A stretch of 64,000 nt of DNA from Halolamina rubra (GTDB taxonomy: Archaea > Halobacteriota > Halobacteria > Halobacteriales > Haloferacaceae), in contig NZ_BBJN01000039.1 of assembly GCF_000739555.1 (NCBI RefSeq), forward strand, positions 1 through 64,000. Reading direction: 5' to 3'. Below are positions 47,242 to 56,465 of this stretch, piece by piece. The notes under the pieces were generated by a model. That model was not told the origin of the DNA, did not search any database, and saw only the letters and a program-made list of their open reading frames with translations. How positions within the stretch are numbered: position 1 is the stretch's first letter; every line of letters begins with the position of its first letter. Made by a program: the position numbers and the translations under genes.

Positions 47242-47997
47242 ATGACCCTGCCGGGCCTGCTCCCCCGCTCCCGCCTGCCCGACCGCGACGCGCTCCCAGG
47301 CTGGCTCGCCCCAGTCCCGCGGGCCGTCGAGGACCTCGGCCTGCGGGCGGTGTGGCTCGTCGTCCTCACGAACCTCGTCGGGACCGCGTTCGGCTTCTGG
47401 TACTACGGCTTCCACCCGCTGCCGCTCTCGGACCCGCTGATCGTCGGCCAGTTCGCCGCGGAGCCCGTGCTCGTGTGGCCGCTCGTCCCCGACAGCCCCG
47501 TGGCGACGCTGTTCATCGCGCTCGCGTTCGGCGCGTGGGCGCTGGGGCGGAACAGCGAGTACCTGAACGCGCTGGCCTTCTTCGGCTGCTGGAAGCTCGG
47601 CCTCTGGACGCCGTACGTCCTGCTCGTCTTCTCGGAGGGGTTCCGCGCGGTCAACCCGCTGCCGATGTACCTGTTCCTCCTGTGCAGCCACCTCGCGATG
47701 GTGGTCCAGGCGTTCGTGCTCCACCGGTTCTCGGACTTCCCGGTCCGCGCCGTCGCGGTCGCGGTGCTCTGGTACGGGCTGAACGACCTCGTCGACTACT
47801 TCGTCCCACTGGTGGGTACGCCCCACCACACCCTGATCCCGGGGCAGGTCGTCGGCGCCGACGGATTCCTCACGCACCCCTCGGAGATCCACCTGCTCGC
47901 GGCGGCGGGCGCGGTGGTGCTCACGCTCACGGCGACGTTCCTGACGCTGTCGACGCGGGTGAAGAAGCTGGAACTGCTCGCAGAAGCCGACCGCTAG
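47242..47997 (+). CDS. DUF1405-family membrane protein
   Basis: A 251-residue membrane protein with about seven helices, matching the DUF1405 family: [104 protein letters not shown] at 47242 is preferred over an in-frame upstream ATG at 47215 because of the natural MTLPGLL start. It overlaps leuB convergently by 4 nt. Function is unknown. Confidence 0.86.
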
Positions 47998-48971
47998 AGC
48001 CGGCGGATCACGGCGTCGGCGACCGCGTCGGTCGTCGCCGAGCCGCCGAGATCCGGCGTTCGGGGCCCCGCCTCGAGAACGGCCTCGACGGCCGCGCGCA
48101 CCTCGTTCGCCTCCTCGTCGTGGCCCAGGTGGGAGAGCAGCATCGCCGCGCTCAGCATCGTCGCCGACGGGTTGGCGACGCCCTCGCCGGCGATGTCTGG
48201 CGCGGTGCCGTGGACCGGCTCGAACAGCCCGTTCTCGGCGCCGACGTTCGCGGAGGGGAGGAGCCCGAGCCCCCCGACCAGCCCGGCCGCGAGGTCCGAG
48301 AGCACGTCGCCCGCGAGGTTGGGGCAGACGATCACGTCGTACTGGGTCGGGTCGAGCGCGAGCTTCGTCGCCATCGCGTCCATCAGTTCAGTCCCGTAGT
48401 CGGCGTCGCGCTCGTCGGCGACGGCGTCGACGGCGTCGAGGAACCGGCCGTCGGTCGTCCGCATCACGTTCGCCTTGTGCGCGACGGTCACGTCGGCGTC
48501 GCGCTCGGCGGCGTACTCGAAGCCGAACTCGGCGATGCGCCGCGAGGCGGACTCGGTGACGACCCGGGTGAGCGTCGTCACGCCCTCGCCGAGATCGCTC
48601 TCGTGGCCCGCGTAGACGCCCTCGGTGTTCTCCCGGACGAACACCACGTCCGTCTCGGGCCGGAGCGCGTCGACGCCGGGGTACGCCCGCGCCGGGCGGA
48701 CGTTCGCGAAGCTGCCGACCGCCTCCCGGAGCGGGAGGATCACCTCGGCGGCCGTCTCGCCCGCGGCGCCGAACAGCGTCGCGTCGGCGCCCTCGACGGT
48801 CTCGCTCGTCGATTCGGGGAGCGGGGTGCCCCGCTCCGCTGCCACCGCGTCGCCGGCCTCGGCGTCGACGAACGAGAACTCGGGCTCGACTGCTTCGAGC
48901 ACCCGGACTGCCGCCGGGACGACCTCCTGCCCGATCCCGTCGCCCGGGACGACCGCGATCTCGTCGGTCAT
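47994..48971 (-). CDS. leuB: 3-isopropylmalate dehydrogenase
   Basis: A 325-residue NAD-dependent beta-decarboxylating dehydrogenase, the last committed oxidative step of leucine synthesis. Motifs are [52 protein letters not shown] (substrate loop), [21 protein letters not shown], and [30 protein letters not shown] at the Mg/NAD site. The first two bases of its ATG overlap the leuD stop (4-nt overlap). It is the last gene of the ilvB-leuB run. Confidence 0.95.
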
Positions 48972-49651
48972 CTATCGGTGTAGGGGAGCGAGGCGGCCGT
49001 CTCGGCGACCTGCTCGGGGTTCGACCCCAGTAGGGCGGTCGTGTCCCACTCGCCGGCCACGAGCGACTGCCGCTGGGCCGGATCGACCGCGGCGTCGATC
49101 TCGCGGTCGGCGTACGTCACGGTCTCCGCGGCCACGTCGACCGTGATCTCGGTGTCGGGCTCGGCCTCGACGCGGTCCTGCAGCGCCGCGATCGCCTCGC
49201 TGTCGGCGGTCACTGTCGGGATGCCCAGCGCGAGGCAGTTGCCCGCGAAGATCTCCGCGAACGACTCGCCGACGACGGCGTCGATCCCCCAGCGCTGGAG
49301 CGCCTGGGGCGCGTGCTCCCGGGAGGAGCCACAGCCGAAGTTGGCGTTGACCACGAGCACGTTCGCGTCCCCGAACTCGGGGTCGTTGAACGGGTGGTCG
49401 GTCGGGTTCTCGGCGACCTCGCCGCCGTCGGCGTCCGGGCCGGTGGTCTCGTAACGCTGGTCGAAGAAGGCGAACTCGCCCAGCCCCTCGAACGTGAGCA
49501 CCTTGAGGAACCGCGCGGGGATGATCTGGTCCGTGTCGATGTCGTTCCCGCGGACGGGGACGCCCGTCCCCGTGACGCGCTCGACGGCCGGGGCGTCGAC
49601 GCCGCCGTCGCTCGACGGGTCAGCGTCAGTCGCGGTCTCGTCACCGCTCAT
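48968..49651 (-). CDS. leuD: 3-isopropylmalate dehydratase small subunit
   Basis: A 227-residue LeuD. The core has [33 protein letters not shown] and the swivelling-domain motif [14 protein letters not shown], then [19 protein letters not shown]. It has a longer than usual acidic N-terminus (about 30 residues). Its ATG overlaps leuC (ATGA). With LeuC it isomerises 2- to 3-isopropylmalate. A CimA-pathway role in citraconate hydration is also possible for this pair. Confidence 0.95.
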
Positions 49652-51075
49652 CGCGCCACCTCCGGGGTCGCGTCCAGTTCGCGCACGTCGGTCACTTCCC
49701 CCGTCACGGCCGCGGCGGCGACCATCTCCGGGCTCATCAGGATCGTCCGCCCGTCGGCGCTGCCCTGCCGGCCGACGAAGTTCCGGTTGGAGGAGGAGGC
49801 ACACACCTCGTCGCCCTCCAGCTGGTCGTCGTTCATCCCGAGACACATCGAGCAGCCCGCCTCACGCCACTCGAAGCCCGCCTCGCGGAAGGTTTCGTCC
49901 AGCCCCTCCCGCTCGGCGGCGGCTTTCACGCGCTGGCTGCCCGGGACGACCAGCCCGCGCACGTCGTCGTGGACCTCGCGGCCCGCGACGATCTCTGCGG
50001 CCGCCCGCAGGTCCGGGAGCCGCGCGTTCGTACAGGAGCCCAGGAACGCGACGTCGACCGGGAAGCCGGCCATCGGCTCGCCGGACTCGACGCCCATGTG
50101 CGCCTGCGCGCGCTCGGCGACCGCGCGGTCCTCGGGCGGCAGCGCCTCGGGCGCCGGCACGGGCTCGGAGACGCCGGCGGTCTGGGCGGGCGTCGTCCCC
50201 CACGTCACCGTCGGCTCAATCGCGTCGGCGTCGATCGTGACCACGTCGTCGTAGGTGGCGTCGTCGCCCGAGCGGATCGACTCCCAGTACCGCTTGCGCT
50301 CCGCGAACGTCTCGGGCGAGTCCTCGAACGCGTCCGTCTCACGGAGCCACTCGTAGGTGGTCTCGTCGGGGTTGACGTAGCCCGCGCGGGCACCGCCCTC
50401 GATCGACATGTTGCAGACGGTCATCCGGCCGGGCATCGACAGCGACTCGACGGCCGGGCCGCCGTACTCGTACACGTAGCCGACGCCGCCGTCGGTGCCG
50501 AGCTCGCCGATGATCGTCAGGATCAGGTCCTTCGCGGTGACGCCGTCGCCGAGCTCGCCCGTGACCTCGATCCGGCGGACCGCCTGCTTCTCCATCGCGA
50601 CGGTGCCGGTGGCGAACACGTCCCGGATCTGTGAGGTGCCGATCCCGAACGCCAGCGCGCCGAAGGCGCCGTGGGTCGCGGTGTGGGAGTCGCCGCAGAC
50701 GACGGTCATCCCGGGCTCGGTCAGCCCCTGCTCCGGCCCGATGACGTGGACGATCCCCTGCCGGCCGGTGTCGGGGTGGTCGAACGTGACCCCCGCGTCG
50801 GCGACGTTCTCCTCGAGCTTCGCCATCATCGACTCCGCGGCGTCGTCGTCGTACGGGCGCTCCCGGTCGTCGGTCGGGACGATGTGGTCGACGGTCGCGT
50901 GGGTGCGCTCGGGGTAGGCGATCTCGAGGTCGCGCTCCTCGAGCATCCCGAACGCCTGCGGGCTGGTGACCTCGTGGATCAGGTGCAGGCCGACGAACAG
51001 CTGGTCCTGGCCGCTGGGGAGCCGACGGACGCGGTGGCGGTCCCACACCGCGTCGTACAGCGTCCCCTCGCTCAT
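49648..51075 (-). CDS. leuC: 3-isopropylmalate dehydratase large subunit
   Basis: A 475-residue aconitase-family subunit holding the [4Fe-4S] cluster: [24 protein letters not shown], then [19 protein letters not shown] and [15 protein letters not shown] supply the three cluster cysteines. [27 protein letters not shown] closes the domain. It overlaps the upstream small orf and the downstream leuD by 4 nt each, so all three are translationally coupled. Confidence 0.96.
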
Positions 51076-51425
51076 ACGTCGGCCTCTGTGTCCGCCTCCG
51101 CGTCGTCGTCCTCCTCGACCCGTTCGACGCCGCGGTCGTACACCTGCGCCGCGTCCGGGGCGTCCTCCCGCGGCGTGTGGTCGACGTCGCCCATCGGCTC
51201 CTCGTCACGCTCGTCGTCGGGCTCGGCGTCGGCCTCGCCGCCGTCGACGACGGCGACCTTCCCGCGCTCGAACACCTGGGAGTCGCCGAACGTCTCGCCG
51301 GTCATGGGGTTGGTGTGCTGCACGTCGCCCATCGTGTGCTGGTCGGCGGCGTGCTCCTCGTCGTGTCGCTGGCTGTCGGTCTCGTGTCGATCCGTCGGGG
51401 TTCGGGTGTCGGTGTGTCGGGTCAT
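51072..51425 (-). CDS. Small acidic hypothetical protein inside the ilv-leu operon
   Basis: A 117-residue, Asp/Glu/His-rich, probably disordered protein with no relatives I can name. It carries two copies of a short motif: [24 protein letters not shown] at residues about 32-55 and [22 protein letters not shown] at about 77-98. Both fit MGDVxHT plus about 12 residues plus QV-aromatic-acid-RG. It starts 4 nt after ilvC and overlaps leuC by 4 nt, so it is made with the pathway enzymes. Function unknown; a scaffold, metal-handling or regulatory role is guesswork. Confidence 0.7.
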
Positions 51426-51429
51426 TGTC

Positions 51430-52461
51430 TCAGTCGTCCGCGGGTGGGTTGGCTGCCTCTCGGTGCTCCTCCTCGCTCCAGGCGAACAGCGCGCGGAGCT
51501 CCTCCCCCACGTCCTCGATGTCGTGGGCCTTCTCGGCGCGGCGGCGCTGGCCGTACGACGGCCGGCCGGCCTGGTTCTCCGCGATCCACTCGCGGGCGAA
51601 CTCGCCGTTCTGGACCTCCTCGAGCACGGTCTCCATCTGCTCGCGCGTGTGGTCGTCGACGACGACGTCGCCGCGGGTGAGCCCGCCGTACTCGGCGGTG
51701 TCGGAGACGGAGTCCCACATCTCGCTCATCCCGCCCTCGTACAGCAGGTCGACGATGAGCTTGAGCTCGTTCAGACACTCGAAGTACGCCATCTCCTCGC
51801 TGTAGCCGGCGTCGGTCAGCGTCTCGTACCCCGCCTTCACGAGCTCGGTGACGCCGCCACAGAGCACCGCCTGTTCGCCGAACAGGTCGGTCTCGGTCTC
51901 CTCGCGGAACGTGGTCTCGATGACGCCCGCGCGGGTGCAGCCGATCGCGTCGGCGTACGCCAGCGCCTCCTGCTTCGCCTCGCCGGTCGCGTCGCGGTAC
52001 ACCGCGAGCAGCCCGGGCGTCCCCTCGCCGTCGGCGTACTGCCGGCGGACGATGTGGCCCGGCCCCTTCGGCGCGACCATCGTCACGTCGACGTCCTCGG
52101 GCGGCTCGATCTGGTCGTAGTGGACGTTGAACCCGTGGGCGAACTGGAGCGTGTCGCCGGCCTCGAGCTCCGGCTCGATCGCCGCGTACACGTCGGGCTG
52201 GACGTTGTCCGGGACGAGCATCGACACCATGTCCGCGGCCGCGGCCGCCTCCGTCGGCGTCGCTACGGCGAGCCCGTCCTCACGGGCCGCCGACCGCGAG
52301 GCCGAGCCCTCCCGCAGGCCGACGATCACGTCGACCCCGCTCTCCGCGAGGTTCTGGGCGTGGGCGTGGCCCTGGCTGCCGTAGCCGAGTACGGCGACCG
52401 TCTTCGTCTCGATGTAGCTGTGCGTCGCGTCGTCGTCGTGGTAGATCGTGTTCTCAGTCAT
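51430..52461 (-). CDS. ilvC: Ketol-acid reductoisomerase
   Basis: A 343-residue class I IlvC. The NADPH Rossmann site is [33 protein letters not shown]. Catalytic Mg2+-binding motifs are [50 protein letters not shown] and [20 protein letters not shown]. It converts acetolactate and acetohydroxybutyrate to dihydroxy acids. It overlaps ilvN by 8 nt. Length is typical of the short form. Confidence 0.97.
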
Positions 52462-53176
52462 CGTTCGTCGGCGCCTCCGGCGCCGTTGCGTGGCTCGATG
52501 CCGCGTCGATCCGCTGTCGTTCGTAGCGCTCCTCCTCCGCGTCGGTGGTCCACTCGGTGCCGCGAGCCAGCGCGGCGGTCCCGGTTCGCGTCAGCTCCCG
52601 GACGCCGAAGCGCTGGAACGCCTCGATCGCCCGGTCGACCTCCGCGGAACTGCCCGTCACCTCGACGGTCACCGTCCCGGGCTCGGCGTCGAGGGTGCGG
52701 GCGTCGAACATCTCGGCGACCGACTCGACCGCGGCGGGCCGGTCGTCGTGGACTTTCAGCACCGCCAGCTCGCGCCGGACCGCGTCCCGGCCCAGCTCGC
52801 GGACCGAGATCACCGGCACCAGCTTCTCGAGCTGCTTCTCGACCTGCCGGACGCCCGGCTCCGGCTCCTCGATGGTGAGCGTCATCCGGGCGGTCTCGGG
52901 GTTGGTCGTCTGCCCGACGGTGAGCGAGTCGATGTCGAACCGGCGGCGGCTCACCAGCCCGGCGACCTCCGCCAGCACGCCGGGCTCGTGTTTCACCAGC
53001 GCCGAGATGGTGGTCCGGCGCTCGGGGTGGCTGGCCTCGGCGTCGGGGTCGACCCGGACGCCCTCCTTCGAGCGGCGCCCGCTGGGTCGCTCGCGCTCGT
53101 CGGGCCCGGGACCGGTCAGCCCGTCACGCTTTGCGTCGCGGTCTGCGAAGCCCCCCTCGGCTCGCTCCCGGCTCAT
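52454..53176 (-). CDS. ilvN: Acetolactate synthase regulatory subunit
   Basis: A 240-residue IlvN. The ACT domain ([46 protein letters not shown]) lies at about residues 57-102. The C-terminal domain ([29 protein letters not shown]) is the second regulatory part. There is an extra 50-residue charged N-terminus and a 35-residue acidic tail. Valine feedback is the family's usual control. It overlaps ilvB by 4 nt and ilvC by 8 nt. Confidence 0.95.
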
Positions 53177-54987
53177 AGCTGCCCCTCCGAGAGCGCGAAG
53201 CCACTGTTGTCGCCGCCGCTCGGGACCATCGGGTAGACGTTCTCGTCGGGGTCGATCCGGGCGTCGACGACCGACGGGCCGTCGTGGGCGAACGCCGCTT
53301 CGAGCGTGTCGGCGACCTCGTCGTACTCCTCGAGCGTGAACCCCTTCGCGCCGAACGCCTCCGCGATGGGTTCGAACTCGGGCATCCAGCCGTACTCCGA
53401 GGCGGTGTGTCGCCCCTCGAAGAACGCGTCCTGCCACTGGCGGACCATCCCGATCGCCTCGTTGTTGAGGATGATCACTGTCACGTCTAGGTTCTCCCGC
53501 GCGGCGACGGAGAGCTCCTGCAGCGTCATCATGAACGAGCCGTCGCCCTCGAAGCAGACGACCTCCCGGTCGGGCGCGGCGACTTTCGCGCCGATGGCGG
53601 CGGGCAGCCCGTACCCCATGGTGCCCAGCCCGTGGCTGGAGACCCAGGCGCGCGGGTCGCGGTACGTCCAGTACTGGGCGGCCCACATCTGGTGCTGGCC
53701 GACGCCGGTGGTGACGATCGCGTCGTCGGGCGTCGCCGCGTCGGCGGCCTCGACGACGAACTGCGGCTTCAGCGGCTCGTCCTCGGGCGCCGCGTACGTC
53801 ATGGGGTACGTCGCCTCCCACTCGCGGCACTGCTCGCGCCACACGTCGTGGCCGTCGGCGTCGGATCGCGCCTCGAGCGCGTCGTGGACCTGCCCGACCA
53901 CGGCCGCGGCGTCGCCGACCAGCGGGTAGTCCGCCTCGACGTTCTTCGAGATCTCGGCGGCGTCGACGTCGGCGTGGATCACCTCGGCCTCGGGCGCGAA
54001 CGTCTCGATGCCACCCGTGAGTCGGTCGTCGAAGCGCGTCCCGATCGCGAACAGACAGTCGGTGTGCGAGACCGCCAAGTTCGCGGCGCCGGTGCCGTGC
54101 ATCCCGGCGAAGGAGAGACAGCGCTCGTCGTCCTCCGGCACCGTGCCGATGCCGGGCATCGTCGTCACCACGGGCACGTCGAAGCGCTCGACGAACGCCC
54201 GCAGCTCCTCGCTGGCCTCGGCTTTCACCACGCCACCACCCGCGAGCACGAGCGGTCGCTCCGCCCGGGCGAGCGCGTCGGCCGCGGCGTCGACGGCTGG
54301 CTCGTCGGCGCGCTCGGGCGCCTCGTAGTACTCCGGCAGTCCGGCCTCCGGGCCGGCGTCGCTCGTCGTCTCGGCCGTCGTCGCGTCCTTCGGCAGGTCG
54401 ACCAGCGTCGGGCCGGGGCGGCCAGCGGCCGCGAGTTCGACCGCCTCGCCGACGCTCGGGCCGACGGCGTCGGCCTCGCCCGCGACGTAGTTCTGCTTCG
54501 TGATCGGCCGCGTGACGCCGACGGTGTCGGTCTCCTGGAACGCGTCGTTACCCAGGAACTCGGTCGGCACCTGCCCCGTCAGCGCGACGACGGGGTCGGA
54601 GTCCATGTCGGCGTCGGCGATCCCCGTGACGAGGTTGGTCGCGCCCGGACCGGAGGTCGCCATGCAGACGCCCGGCTCGCCCGTCACCTGGCCGTAGGCG
54701 TCGGCGGCGTGGGCCGCCGCCTGCTCGTGGGCCATCGTGACGTGGGTCGGCGCCGCGTCGGCCTCCGCGAGCGCGTCGTAGACGGGCATGATCGCGCCGC
54801 CCTGCACGCCGAAGACGTGCTCGACGCCCGCCGTCTCGAGCGCGGCGATCGCGGCGTCGGCGCCGGTCGTCGCCGTGGACTGCTCGTCGTGGTCGGGTGG
54901 CTGTTCGTCGCTCGGTTCCGCTCGGTCGTCGTCGTGCCGTGGCTCCCCCTCGGTGGGTCGGGCCGCGGCGGGTGCTGGCTCGCTCAT
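53173..54987 (-). CDS. ilvB: Acetolactate synthase catalytic subunit
   Basis: A 604-residue ThDP/FAD enzyme. After a 40-residue acidic extension come the catalytic Glu in MAHEQAAAHAADAYGQVTGEPGVC, GPGATNLVTGIADADMDSDPVVALTGQVP, KFNY-region equivalents, and the ThDP site CFEGDGSFMMTLQELSVAARENLDVTVIILNN followed by MVRQWQDAFFEGRHTASEYG, typical of AHAS. First enzyme of valine/isoleucine synthesis and first gene of the seven-gene operon. A short leader frame and hairpin lie 63-140 nt upstream of its ATG. Confidence 0.96.
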   Translation of the reverse strand: MSEPAPAAARPTEGEPRHDDDRAEPSDEQPPDHDEQSTATTGADAAIAALETAGVEHVFGVQGGAIMPVYDALAEADAAPTHVTMAHEQAAAHAADAYGQVTGEPGVCMATSGPGATNLVTGIADADMDSDPVVALTGQVPTEFLGNDAFQETDTVGVTRPITKQNYVAGEADAVGPSVGEAVELAAAGRPGPTLVDLPKDATTAETTSDAGPEAGLPEYYEAPERADEPAVDAAADALARAERPLVLAGGGVVKAEASEELRAFVERFDVPVVTTMPGIGTVPEDDERCLSFAGMHGTGAANLAVSHTDCLFAIGTRFDDRLTGGIETFAPEAEVIHADVDAAEISKNVEADYPLVGDAAAVVGQVHDALEARSDADGHDVWREQCREWEATYPMTYAAPEDEPLKPQFVVEAADAATPDDAIVTTGVGQHQMWAAQYWTYRDPRAWVSSHGLGTMGYGLPAAIGAKVAAPDREVVCFEGDGSFMMTLQELSVAARENLDVTVIILNNEAIGMVRQWQDAFFEGRHTASEYGWMPEFEPIAEAFGAKGFTLEEYDEVADTLEAAFAHDGPSVVDARIDPDENVYPMVPSGGDNSGFALSEGQL

Positions 54988-55049
54988 CGTGACTGGTGAC
55001 TGCGGGTTCGCTGGTCGGGTGATGCGACGGTCGGTTGAGAAGCGGTGGG

Positions 55050-55073
55050 TGTAGGGGTCAGGCAGCCCCTACA
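55050..55073 (-). promoter_or_regulatory. Leader hairpin between the ilvB leader peptide and ilvB
   Basis: Perfect 8-bp stem: TGTAGGGG (minus strand, 55073-55066) with CCCCTACA (55057-55050), loop of 8 nt. The 5' arm begins in the last Ile/Val codons of the 22-codon leader frame, and the leader's UGA stop sits in the loop. It is followed by no clear U-tract. The placement is that expected of an attenuator or a translation-coupling structure. Confidence 0.5.
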
Positions 55074-55126
55074 ATGATGAGCGAGACGCTGACGCCGAGC
55101 GAACCGGTGTGGCGTCGACGCGTCAT
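55058..55126 (-). CDS. Putative ilvB operon leader peptide (22 aa, Leu/Val/Ile-rich)
   Basis: A 23-codon frame (stop included), ATG at 55126 to TGA at 55060-55058. After Met-Thr and three Arg, residues 9-20 read SLGVSVSLIIVG: seven of the ten codons 10-19 are Leu, Val or Ile. Two of them, ATT and GTA, are rare in this GC-rich genome and lie at the entrance to the hairpin. A TTATC box is centred about 28 nt upstream, so the mRNA would start at this ATG. It ends 70 nt before ilvB. This matches the logic of bacterial ilv leader peptides. The length makes chance a real alternative. Confidence 0.5.
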   Translation of the reverse strand: MTRRRHTGSLGVSVSLIIVGAA

Positions 55127-55150
55127 GGACGGCCCGATGAACCCGACCGT

Positions 55151-55164
55151 GATAACTCTTTCCG
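55151..55164 (-). promoter_or_regulatory. Promoter of the ilvB leader/operon
   Basis: On the minus strand CGGAAAGAGTTATC reads as a purine-rich BRE followed by a TATA-like TTATC core. The core is about 25-29 nt before the ATG of the leader frame at 55126, which implies a leaderless message whose first codon is that ATG. Confidence 0.5.
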
Positions 55165-55231
55165 CGCCGTGTCGACCCGTGACACGATCGCTGCCGCTGG
55201 GGCTGTCGCGAGGCGTCGTCGGTGGCGCGCA

Positions 55232-56465
55232 TCAGGCCGGCCCCTCCGTGATCCGCTCGCTCTCGCGATCCACGTCGTGGGCCTCGGCGATGGCGGCGAG
55301 CGTGTCGTCGGTGATCTCGTCGCCGTCGGCGCCGCGGTCTTTCACCTCGCGGGTGACCGCGCGCACCTGCTCGTCGGTCGGGTCGTAGCCCGCGTCCTGC
55401 AGGCGCTCGCGGACGGAGTGGGTGCCGGTGTGTTTGCCCAGCACCAGCTCGCGCTCGGCGCCGACCATCTCCGGCGTCATCACCCCGGGCTCGAACGTCG
55501 CCGCGTTCTCGATGACGCCCGCGGCGTGGATGCCGGACTCGTGGGCGAACGCGTTGTCGCCGATCACCGGCGCGTTCGCCGGCTGGTCGACGCCGCTGCG
55601 CGCCTCGACGGTACGGGCCAGTTCCGTGATCTCCGTGGTGTCGATCCCGGTGTCGGCGCCGTAGACGCTCTCGGCGGCCATGACGACCTGCTCGAAGGCG
55701 GCGTTGCCGGCACGCTCGCCGATGCCGCCGACGGAGACCTGCGCCTGGTCGGCGCCGGCCTCGAAGCCGGCCAGCGCGTTCGCGCTCGCGAGCCCGAAGT
55801 CGTCGTGGGTGTGCACGTCGATCCGCGCGTCAGTGTGCTCCCGGATCGACCGGATCAGGTCCGCGAACCGGTCGGGGGTCGCGACCCCGCAGGTGTCCGG
55901 GACGTTGATCCAGTCGGCGCCGGCCGCCGAGACCGCCTCGATCACCTCGAACAGGTAGTCGGGGTCGGTTCGGGTGGCGTCCATGGGGGAGAACATCACT
56001 TCGGCCCCGGAGTCGGCCGCGCGCTCGACGTTCGCGACCGTGCGCTCGAGCACGGCCTCGCGGCTGGCGTGCATCGAGTCCTCGATCTGCACGTCGCTGG
56101 TCGACGCGAACGTGTGGACCATGTCGACGCCGGCGTCGATCGCGGCCTCGACGTCCTCCTCGACGACGCGGGCCAGCCCACACACCGTCGTGTCGGCGGC
56201 CGACGCCACGTCGCGGACCGCCGCGAACTCCGCGTCGGAGTTCACGGGGAAGCCCGCCTCGATCACGTCGACGCCCGCGCTGTCCAGCGCGGCGGCTATC
56301 TCGCGTTTGTCCTCGTAGGAGAACGACGTACGGGGCGACTGTTCACCGTCTCGCAGGGTGGTGTCGAAGATCCGAGCTTTGGCGAACTCGGGATCAGTTC
56401 TCAGCGTGCCCTGGGAGAACTCGATCCGCCGGGGATTCCGACGCTCCCTCGATATCGTGAGTCAT
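55232..56465 (-). CDS. leuA: 2-isopropylmalate synthase (or citramalate synthase), 5' end frameshifted
   Basis: A LeuA/CimA-family enzyme of about 410 residues. FDTTLRDGEQSPRTSFSYEDKREIAAALDSAGVDVIEAGFPVNSDAEF holds the catalytic and metal site, with VHTHDDFGLASANALAGFEAGADQAQVSVGGIGERAGNAAFEQV later. It lacks the full C-terminal leucine-allosteric domain. The frame containing DTTLRDGEQ has no ATG, GTG or TTG before it. The ATG at 56465, just downstream of a TATA box, is in another frame. Removing one base from GGGG at 56431-56434 joins MTHDIEGASES to RRIEFSQGTLR, a normal family N-terminus. The listed start assumes that. Confidence 0.85.

Follow-up and report, generated by a model that had tools for sequence, protein, structure and literature searches.

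How might an archaeon adjust the expression of its branched-chain amino acid genes to the supply of their products? The question is raised by a 64,000-nt stretch of DNA from Halolamina rubra (contig NZ_BBJN01000039.1, positions 1 to 64,000; hereafter the window), in which a short reading frame rich in Leu, Val and Ile codons lies just upstream of ilvB. An initial annotation had proposed that this frame is the leader peptide of an archaeal attenuator, with control codons for Leu, Val and Ile, translated from a leaderless transcript. In bacteria, attenuation through leader peptides is textbook knowledge, and it needs coupling between transcription and translation. Regarding Archaea, "nearly nothing is known" about such coupling (PMC8576121).

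The leader element upstream of ilvB

All features of the element lie on the minus strand. A TATA-like box, TTATC (55155-55151), starts 29 nt before an ATG at 55126, an arrangement that points to a leaderless or near-leaderless promoter. The ATG opens a 22-codon frame (55126-55058) with the translation MTRRRHTGSLGVSVSLIIVGAA. Its codons 10-19 read L G V S V S L I I V; Leu, Val or Ile occupy seven of these ten positions (with ATC-ATT-GTA in succession), and this run ends in Leu16-Ile17-Ile18-Val19 (CTC ATC ATT GTA; 55070-55081), which we regard as the putative control codons from the sequence and from codon counts across loci. Within the Ile18 and Val19 codons begins the 5' arm of a hairpin (TGTAGGGG, 55073-55066), near-invariant in the first 29 loci; the 3' arm (CCCCTACA, 55057-55050), which carries compensatory changes in variant members, completes an 8-bp stem, and the 8-nt loop (CTGCCTGA, 55058-55065) contains the leader stop TGA (55060-55058). 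The ilvB gene for the large subunit of acetolactate synthase (54987-53173) starts 62 nt past the stem and 70 nt past the leader stop. It is 83% identical to ilvB of Halolamina salifodinae and heads the open reading frames ilvB-ilvN-ilvC-small ORF-leuC-leuD-leuB (47994-54987), presumably one unit and the one under control. On its upstream side the leader adjoins leuA, whose end is at 55232. The names of these genes in the window (ilvB, ilvN, ilvC, leuC, leuD, leuB and leuA) are presumptive family assignments.

Over the whole 64-kb window, both strands, our own pattern for a TATA-like box at leaderless distance from a short ATG ORF (8-60 codons) returned three ORFs, among which the ilvB leader alone had both an end rich in Ile, Leu and Val and a stem of at least 7 bp whose loop contains the stop. 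The folding energy of the 145-nt stretch is unremarkable (z -1.51, with 13 of 200 shuffles as good), so the proof for this leader is comparative and not energetic. Rfam covariance models gave no match at E ≤ 5 on either strand of 351 bases, and no U-tract terminator of the bacterial type was found at 54900-55300. The initial observation at ilvB is thus confirmed and is no chance pattern: the 22-codon frame, the TTATC box, the Leu/Ile/Val run and the stop-in-loop hairpin all lie where the initial annotation had placed them.

Conservation across haloarchaea

A match to ilvB was present in 60 of the 60 relatives searched, three of which (G036, G049 and G053) have only a distant one. For the comparison of upstream regions we gathered the loci of 30 relatives, regions of 27 further genomes, two extra copies, one longer stretch and 80 named loci, that is, 134 distinct upstream sequences representing 133 genes (L030 and L089 are the same gene, that of G014). 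The element was found in 29 of the 30 loci first returned, and upstream of 129 of the 133 readable haloarchaeal ilvB genes: 123 canonical members identified by script, meaning the motif (the search required GTAGGGG) with an in-frame ATG and a nearby stop, and six variants identified by eye. The 123 canonical upstream regions are all distinct over 120 nt. Among the variants, the leaders of Actinarchaeum and a close relative end in PIVGPA before the stop and have the stem GTAGGGCC/GGCCCTAC, that of an AT-rich genome ends in VSVGA, one with a GTG start ends in IVGAF, and those at two second ilvB copies end in IIGVHA and IIGAPQ. These second copies (L074 in G031 and L087 in G029) have kept the leader and the stop-in-loop hairpin without GTA, the L074 copy with a different stem sequence, GGGGTT/AACCCC. 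No element was seen at ilvB in G014, G045, G043 and G058 among the 133 genes. Aligning the ilvB upstream regions of relatives was a check that the initial annotation had suggested, and conservation across the class was found for the short frame, for the Ile/Val codons in it and for the stem.

Of 292 genomes belonging to the class, 281 had a match (E ≤ 0.1) to a covariance model built on the first 29 loci, a figure that counts any match anywhere in the genome, some of which may be valS or chance matches. G016, without a match in this 292-genome search, has the element (L062). Outside the class, four of about 163 genomes gave weak model matches (E 0.001-0.007); these we treated as chance from their sequences. 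In this sample, the element is a haloarchaeal feature.

The hairpin and the tract that follows it

Canonical members show no covariation, because their nearly invariant arms hardly vary. Paired changes of the stem are found in Actinarchaeum (GGGCC/GGCCC), in a second ilvB copy (GGGGUU/AACCCC) and in the ileS leaders of Haloferax described below (GCGGGG/CCUCGC). With the divergent members added, 13 cells are doubly changed against 3.8 in shuffles (0/500), in an alignment of 36 sequences that includes 21 canonical ilvB leaders, picked so as to cover the range of the set, and the relatedness of the sequences qualifies this count. A slide of +2 also scores, with 9 cells, since the ileS stems pair in another register in that alignment. 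The stem covariation also proposed as a check is seen in the divergent members, as compensated changes. Regarding an alternative pairing, the complementarity of the leader to either arm was below that of codon shuffles in 122 leaders, and a classical antiterminator of the trp type was rejected for this lack of excess complementarity.

After the stem comes a G-free run with a median of 16 nt, at least 12 nt long in 67% of the 123 loci, compared with 0.4% of 1,783 other CCCC sites in the same loci. Thymine is raised at +12, +13, +14 and +16 (.41,.65,.50 and.42, respectively), which gives a class-wide U cluster from +12 to +16, and 93 of the 123 loci have a TTC at +7 to +24, against 46.2 in shuffled sequences. 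The window copy (55038-55053, after CCCC) has a G-free run of 10 nt only, followed by GC and by TT at +13/+14, in the place of the class-wide cluster. A long U-tract was not found in the 123 loci: the maximal number of T per 8 nt equals that of shuffles (3.84 vs 3.82), and the longest T run is slightly above them (2.67 vs 2.27). Between the stem and the aligned start of ilvB lie 48 to 474 nt, depending on the locus.

These features can be set beside termination in Haloferax volcanii, where a T stretch with TC marks the intergenic termination sites, 503 sites have a hairpin up to 10 nt upstream, and 59% of transcripts ended at the one hairpin tested in vivo (PMC7237163). The anatomy of the hairpin and its tract would suit a leaky, regulated terminator. 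Since the stem is followed throughout the class by a tract that is poor in G and contains a U cluster, a feature that a single sequence could not reveal, we lean towards transcription termination as the regulatory outcome.

Evidence for translation of the leader and its putative control codons

The 198 ATG codons at -120 to -20 of the motif are distributed 171/14/13 over the three frames, with 171 in the leader frame. When the first ATG past the nearest TATA-like box was considered, it was in frame in 112 of 117 loci (the other six of the 123 yielded no box with an ATG), in most cases at 29-32 nt from the box, as would be expected of haloarchaeal genes with leaderless transcripts. In 116 of the 123 loci the stop starts ahead of the 3' CCCC, in seven after it, and the loop, of 5, 6, 7 or 8 nt, varies in length together with the reading frame. 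The leader frame thus looks translated, and it is this comparative ATG-frame evidence that provides the short upstream ORF of a leader-peptide attenuator. The N-terminal part of the leader is not conserved between genera, only the last codons being kept, and the first 16 codons in seven Halolamina genomes show 28 synonymous vs 26 nonsynonymous pairwise differences. Hence, translation itself and the last codons seem to matter, rather than the peptide as a product.

Counting from the codon at the start of the motif (codon 0), codon -1 is Ile in 121 of the 123 loci, and in 91 of these it is ATT, which makes up 6.6% of the Ile codons of ilvB. Codon 0 is GTA, against 0.5% of ilvB Val codons; GTA is built into the canonical search (GTAGGGG), and the independent figure is that of the variants, of which four of six also have GTA. 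The fraction of Ile, Leu and Val at codons -1 to -7 is 1.0,.48,.61,.20,.45,.47 and.30, compared with.177 in IlvB, and upstream of codon -7 it is about background or below. Control codons for the product of the pathway are therefore found near the hairpin, as in an attenuator, and rare codons in this position are what a sensor of tRNA charging would use. In some leaders a single Ile codon and a single Val codon lie close to the stem, which in a bacterium would count as a weak sensor.

Cognate leaders at aminoacyl-tRNA synthetase genes

A hairpin of the ilvB type also occurs before valS in several families, with Val and without Ile at the control positions. The leaders end, before their stop codons, in DDVFVGAF, AAFVPVVGAPMPH (stop past the stem), AAFVGAP, DVFVGEI and TVFVGAP. 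We found this type in four of 30 valS loci (L190, L195, L196 and L197), L196 having a single Val at the control positions and L195 its stop after the stem. A second type, present in seven of the 30 (L178, L180, L181, L182, L184, L185 and L187), is a short leaderless ORF with a V-V-R or V-V-Y end encoded with GTAGTA, in which no clear hairpin was seen; the ValRS at these loci scores higher against TIGR00422 than most others and perhaps represents another ValRS subfamily. In the remaining 19 of 30 loci, including that of the window's own genome, no valS leader was seen. Second matches to the ilvB model, as possible pointers to further targets, were searched for in 40 genomes, six of them also covered by the valS search. 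In five of these six (G041, G054 with E 0.19, G056, G057 and G059; not G051) the extra match lies just upstream of valS, and G054 has one further match elsewhere. Among the other 34 genomes, the extra match that was placed, that of G076 (L092), lies within another coding region and was taken as chance.

Regarding ileS, the Haloferax genes have the same type of hairpin with Ile-Ile and without Val (..IIAG followed by Q, H or R and the stop), on the stem given above, in 14 of 15 loci, some of whose sequences start inside the leader. In a wider set, one of 30 ileS loci has the leader (L248), and three others have short boxed ORFs without an Ile run. The pheS gene is preceded by a leader with a Phe run near its end, mostly ..GFGFFF.., in 22 of 30 loci (L345-L371), and each of these 22 leaders has a T-rich box at the distance typical of leaderless transcripts; the leader in the window's own genome (L363) is MAPDTAARTNRLAAAGRGVGFFFA. 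For the pheS leaders as a set, the stop-in-loop stem is only mildly above shuffles (55% vs 22% with at least 5 GC pairs). Leaders of the plasmid-type trpS (..CWRW.., 23 aa) were found in two of four Haloferax loci, in a scan that discarded W-containing ORFs without a promoter box, and in three of six named plasmid loci (L374, L375, L403, L404 and L405). Those of L403-L405 are absent from the gene tables of their plasmid records, which are known to be incomplete. None of 14 chromosomal-type Haloferax trpS loci had a leader.

The same kind of scan was empty at three other genes: 0 of 30 loci for leuS (short ORF with a box), 0 of 30 for trpD (at least two Trp towards the end, with an ORF in L309 discarded as repeat-like) and 0 of 30 for hisG (at least two His), with criteria that would miss leaders with fewer control codons. 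According to these blanks, the match between control codons and cognate gene is not the product of hard looking. The proposal of an archaeal leader peptide with Leu/Val/Ile control codons on a leaderless transcript is therefore supported by conservation across the class together with the matching codons at valS and ileS.

As a separate observation on histidine, hisG gave no match at E ≤ 1e-30 in seven of seven Halolamina genomes (G000-G006) and was found in 50 of the 60 searched, so that histidine auxotrophy is possible in Halolamina.

The start codon of leuA

The neighbouring leuA (56465-55232, minus strand) has a start-codon problem of its own. At its promoter-associated ATG in the window there is a short frame (56465-56394), and among 88 leuA loci (relatives among L001-L177) the TATA-associated ATG is out of the LeuA frame in 69 of the 69 that have one, the other 19 being without it. 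The LeuA frame itself lacks an upstream ATG, GTG or TTG in 55 of the 88 and has one in 33, some of the stretches being incomplete. A shift of +1 would join the two frames, and CGA-GTT-CT(T/C)-C occurs in the same frame relation in 81 loci, a site of rare codons that includes one Leu codon. Two loci of the Actinarchaeum type differ by one base just past CTT. The problem has been noticed before, by Pfeiffer and Dyall-Smith. Their report notes it in 16 genomes, names an atypical start or slippage and speculates on leucine dependence (PMC8305020). The present counts make conserved slippage more likely, and a conserved +1 shift at CGA-GTT-CTT/CTC seems to be required for leuA.

A model for the control of ilvB and its alternatives

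At the level of sequence, the comparison establishes a translated frame, Ile/Val codons, a stop in the loop, a hairpin, a G-poor tract and a switch to cognate codons at valS and ileS, and sensing of Ile and Val by the leader is well supported. We consider it probable that the element is a leader-peptide (ribosome-mediated) attenuator of an archaeal kind on a leaderless transcript, in which a waiting ribosome blocks the hairpin and transcription otherwise terminates. We infer the stalling, the termination and the direction of the response from this anatomy. The transcript would begin at the leader ATG, and ribosomes would start on the leader at once. With Ile-tRNA or Val-tRNA (perhaps also Leu-tRNA) in short supply, the ribosome would wait at the rare ATT or GTA codon, before or inside the 5' arm; it would cover GUAGGGG, no hairpin would form, and RNA polymerase would continue into ilvB. 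When charged tRNA is plentiful, the ribosome would get to the stop codon in the loop and depart, and the hairpin would then form just upstream of the G-poor, U-containing tract, where RNA polymerase would terminate, or a factor such as FttA/aCPSF1 would remove it, before ilvB. The waiting ribosome itself would be the antiterminator. The footprint of a ribosome reaches about 12-13 nt past the A site. A ribosome waiting with its A site on ATT or GTA would cover the 5' arm, and release at the stop would leave that arm free; the strongest Ile/Leu/Val positions do lie in or near the ribosome-covered zone. Transcription and translation appear coupled in H. volcanii (PMC8576121). Against attenuation stand the lack of a long U-tract and, in the stretch of the window scanned, of a bacterial-type terminator, the lack of an antiterminator, the short G-free run of the window copy, the missing covariation in canonical members, the leaders with few control codons, the stop past the stem in seven of the 123 loci and in one valS leader (L195), and the absence of a leader at valS of the window's own genome and, in 30 loci each, at leuS, trpD and hisG.

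One could argue that the leader does sense Ile/Val charging and acts after transcription, on mRNA stability or on (re)initiation of ilvB translation. No classic terminator was found in the stretch of the window scanned, and a leaderless leader ORF sharing a transcript with the main ORF could be coupled to it, as the initial annotation had raised; we nevertheless find this unlikely, as a stem-to-ilvB distance of 48 to 474 nt is loose for coupling and the G-poor/U tract hugs the hairpin rather than the start of ilvB. The near-invariant last residues, (I)IVG(A/V), close to the stop, could instead belong to a nascent arrest peptide of the TnaC kind, ...IIVGA stalling its own ribosome near the stop with a free branched-chain amino acid as the signal. 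In such a peptide the arrest sequence would be constant and so would its distance from the stop, and the leaders show neither: GTA lies 3, 4, 6 or 8 codons from the stop, the residues at valS and ileS differ (VFVGAP, VFVGEI, IIAGQ) and track the cognate amino acid, and much of the conservation is of nucleotides, in the stem. This makes an arrest peptide quite improbable.

Nucleotide conservation of this kind, with GTAGGGG..CCCCTAC almost invariant in canonical members, would also be expected of a palindromic binding site for a regulatory protein, on RNA or DNA, with an incidental frame. That explanation leaves the frame, the position of the stop, the rare Ile/Val codons and the distribution of ATGs unaccounted for; a protein dimer on DNA would hardly be expected to tolerate a spacer varying over 5-8 nt, and different stems serve the same logic at ileS and at one second copy of ilvB. 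We therefore hold it to be very improbable indeed. Finally, the ORF is conserved and evidently translated, and it might be a functional micropeptide gene that merely lies before ilvB. To this we give almost no credence: between genera only the last codons are conserved, the synonymous and nonsynonymous differences within Halolamina speak against strong purifying selection, and sensing is what the cognate codons ahead of valS, ileS, pheS and trpS suggest.

Relation to known leaders

The favoured reading, a ribosome-mediated attenuator, has its nearest relatives in bacteria. The E. coli attenuators of ilvB (ivbL) and ilvGMEDA likewise have a short Val/Leu/Ile ORF, with the position of the ribosome deciding on the hairpin, and they work with an antiterminator and a U-tract terminator on a leadered mRNA; the haloarchaeal element differs by its one hairpin, the stop in the loop, a presumably leaderless mRNA and no antiterminator. 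The end of E. coli IvbL, ..VVVVVGNAP, resembles the haloarchaeal ..IIVGAP, a likeness that is presumably convergence. The bacterial pheST and trp attenuators have runs of Phe or Trp before their cognate genes, as do the haloarchaeal leaders of pheS and plasmid-type trpS; the latter differ in being archaeal and leaderless, and the support for the pheS hairpin is weak. T-box riboswitches too sense tRNA charging before aminoacyl-tRNA synthetase and biosynthesis genes; unlike them, the haloarchaeal element has no Rfam match and would sense through a translated frame.

The closest layout is that of the actinobacterial ilvB leaders, where the Ile/Val/Leu codons overlap the hairpin directly; unlike the haloarchaeal ones, these have poly-U terminators and bacterial hosts (PMC1262725). 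The ilvBNC operon of C. glutamicum is a case of such a leader ORF (PMC11857589). In S. coelicolor, mutated candidate control codons had no effect (PMC1262725), which is a warning for the haloarchaeal case too.

Two of the leaders have probably been seen before. Babski et al. 2016, using dRNA-Seq, found a 26-aa uORF before pheS (HVO_2948) and a 23-aa uORF before a trpS (HVO_A0127) in H. volcanii, among uORFs in transcripts with long 5'UTRs; the accessible text mentions neither codons nor attenuation, the string 'attenuat' does not occur in it, and ilvB, valS and ileS are missing from its uORF table (PMC4983044). The published lengths equal those of the F- and W-rich leaders of other Haloferax found here, and the masses differ slightly (2772 against 2822; 2743 against 2730 and 2728), presumably because the species are different. 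From gene and length, we infer that the published uORFs are the leaders described here. In the literature searched, largely papers available without subscription, we found no description of an archaeal leader-peptide attenuator, and the accessible text of PMC7237163, PMC4983044, PMC12482152, PMC8576121, PMC1262725 and PMC8305020 contains no such attenuator at these genes. What would be new with respect to bacterial attenuation is the different domain, the leaderless transcript, the single hairpin, and the lack of an antiterminator and of a long U-tract; the logic would be the same.

On a broader proposal our judgement is evenly poised: that haloarchaea have a general system with the ribosome as sensor, with cognate leaderless leaders at ilvB, valS, ileS, pheS and trpS and with access to leuA controlled by a conserved +1 frameshift at a site of rare codons, one of them for Leu. 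This would be an archaeal amino-acid attenuation independent of the bacterial form and without an antiterminator, in which the ribosome controls RNA polymerase in cis.

Implications

If this broader proposal is true, amino-acid attenuation exists in Archaea, and an archaeal ribosome is able to control RNA polymerase in cis. Through a codon-based leader present across the class, with cognate relatives at valS, ileS, pheS and trpS, three processes would become open to direct tests in Haloferax volcanii: the coupling of transcription and translation, the sensing of amino acids, and termination in the absence of a long U-tract. More than 100 natural sequence variants of the leader would be usable as controls.
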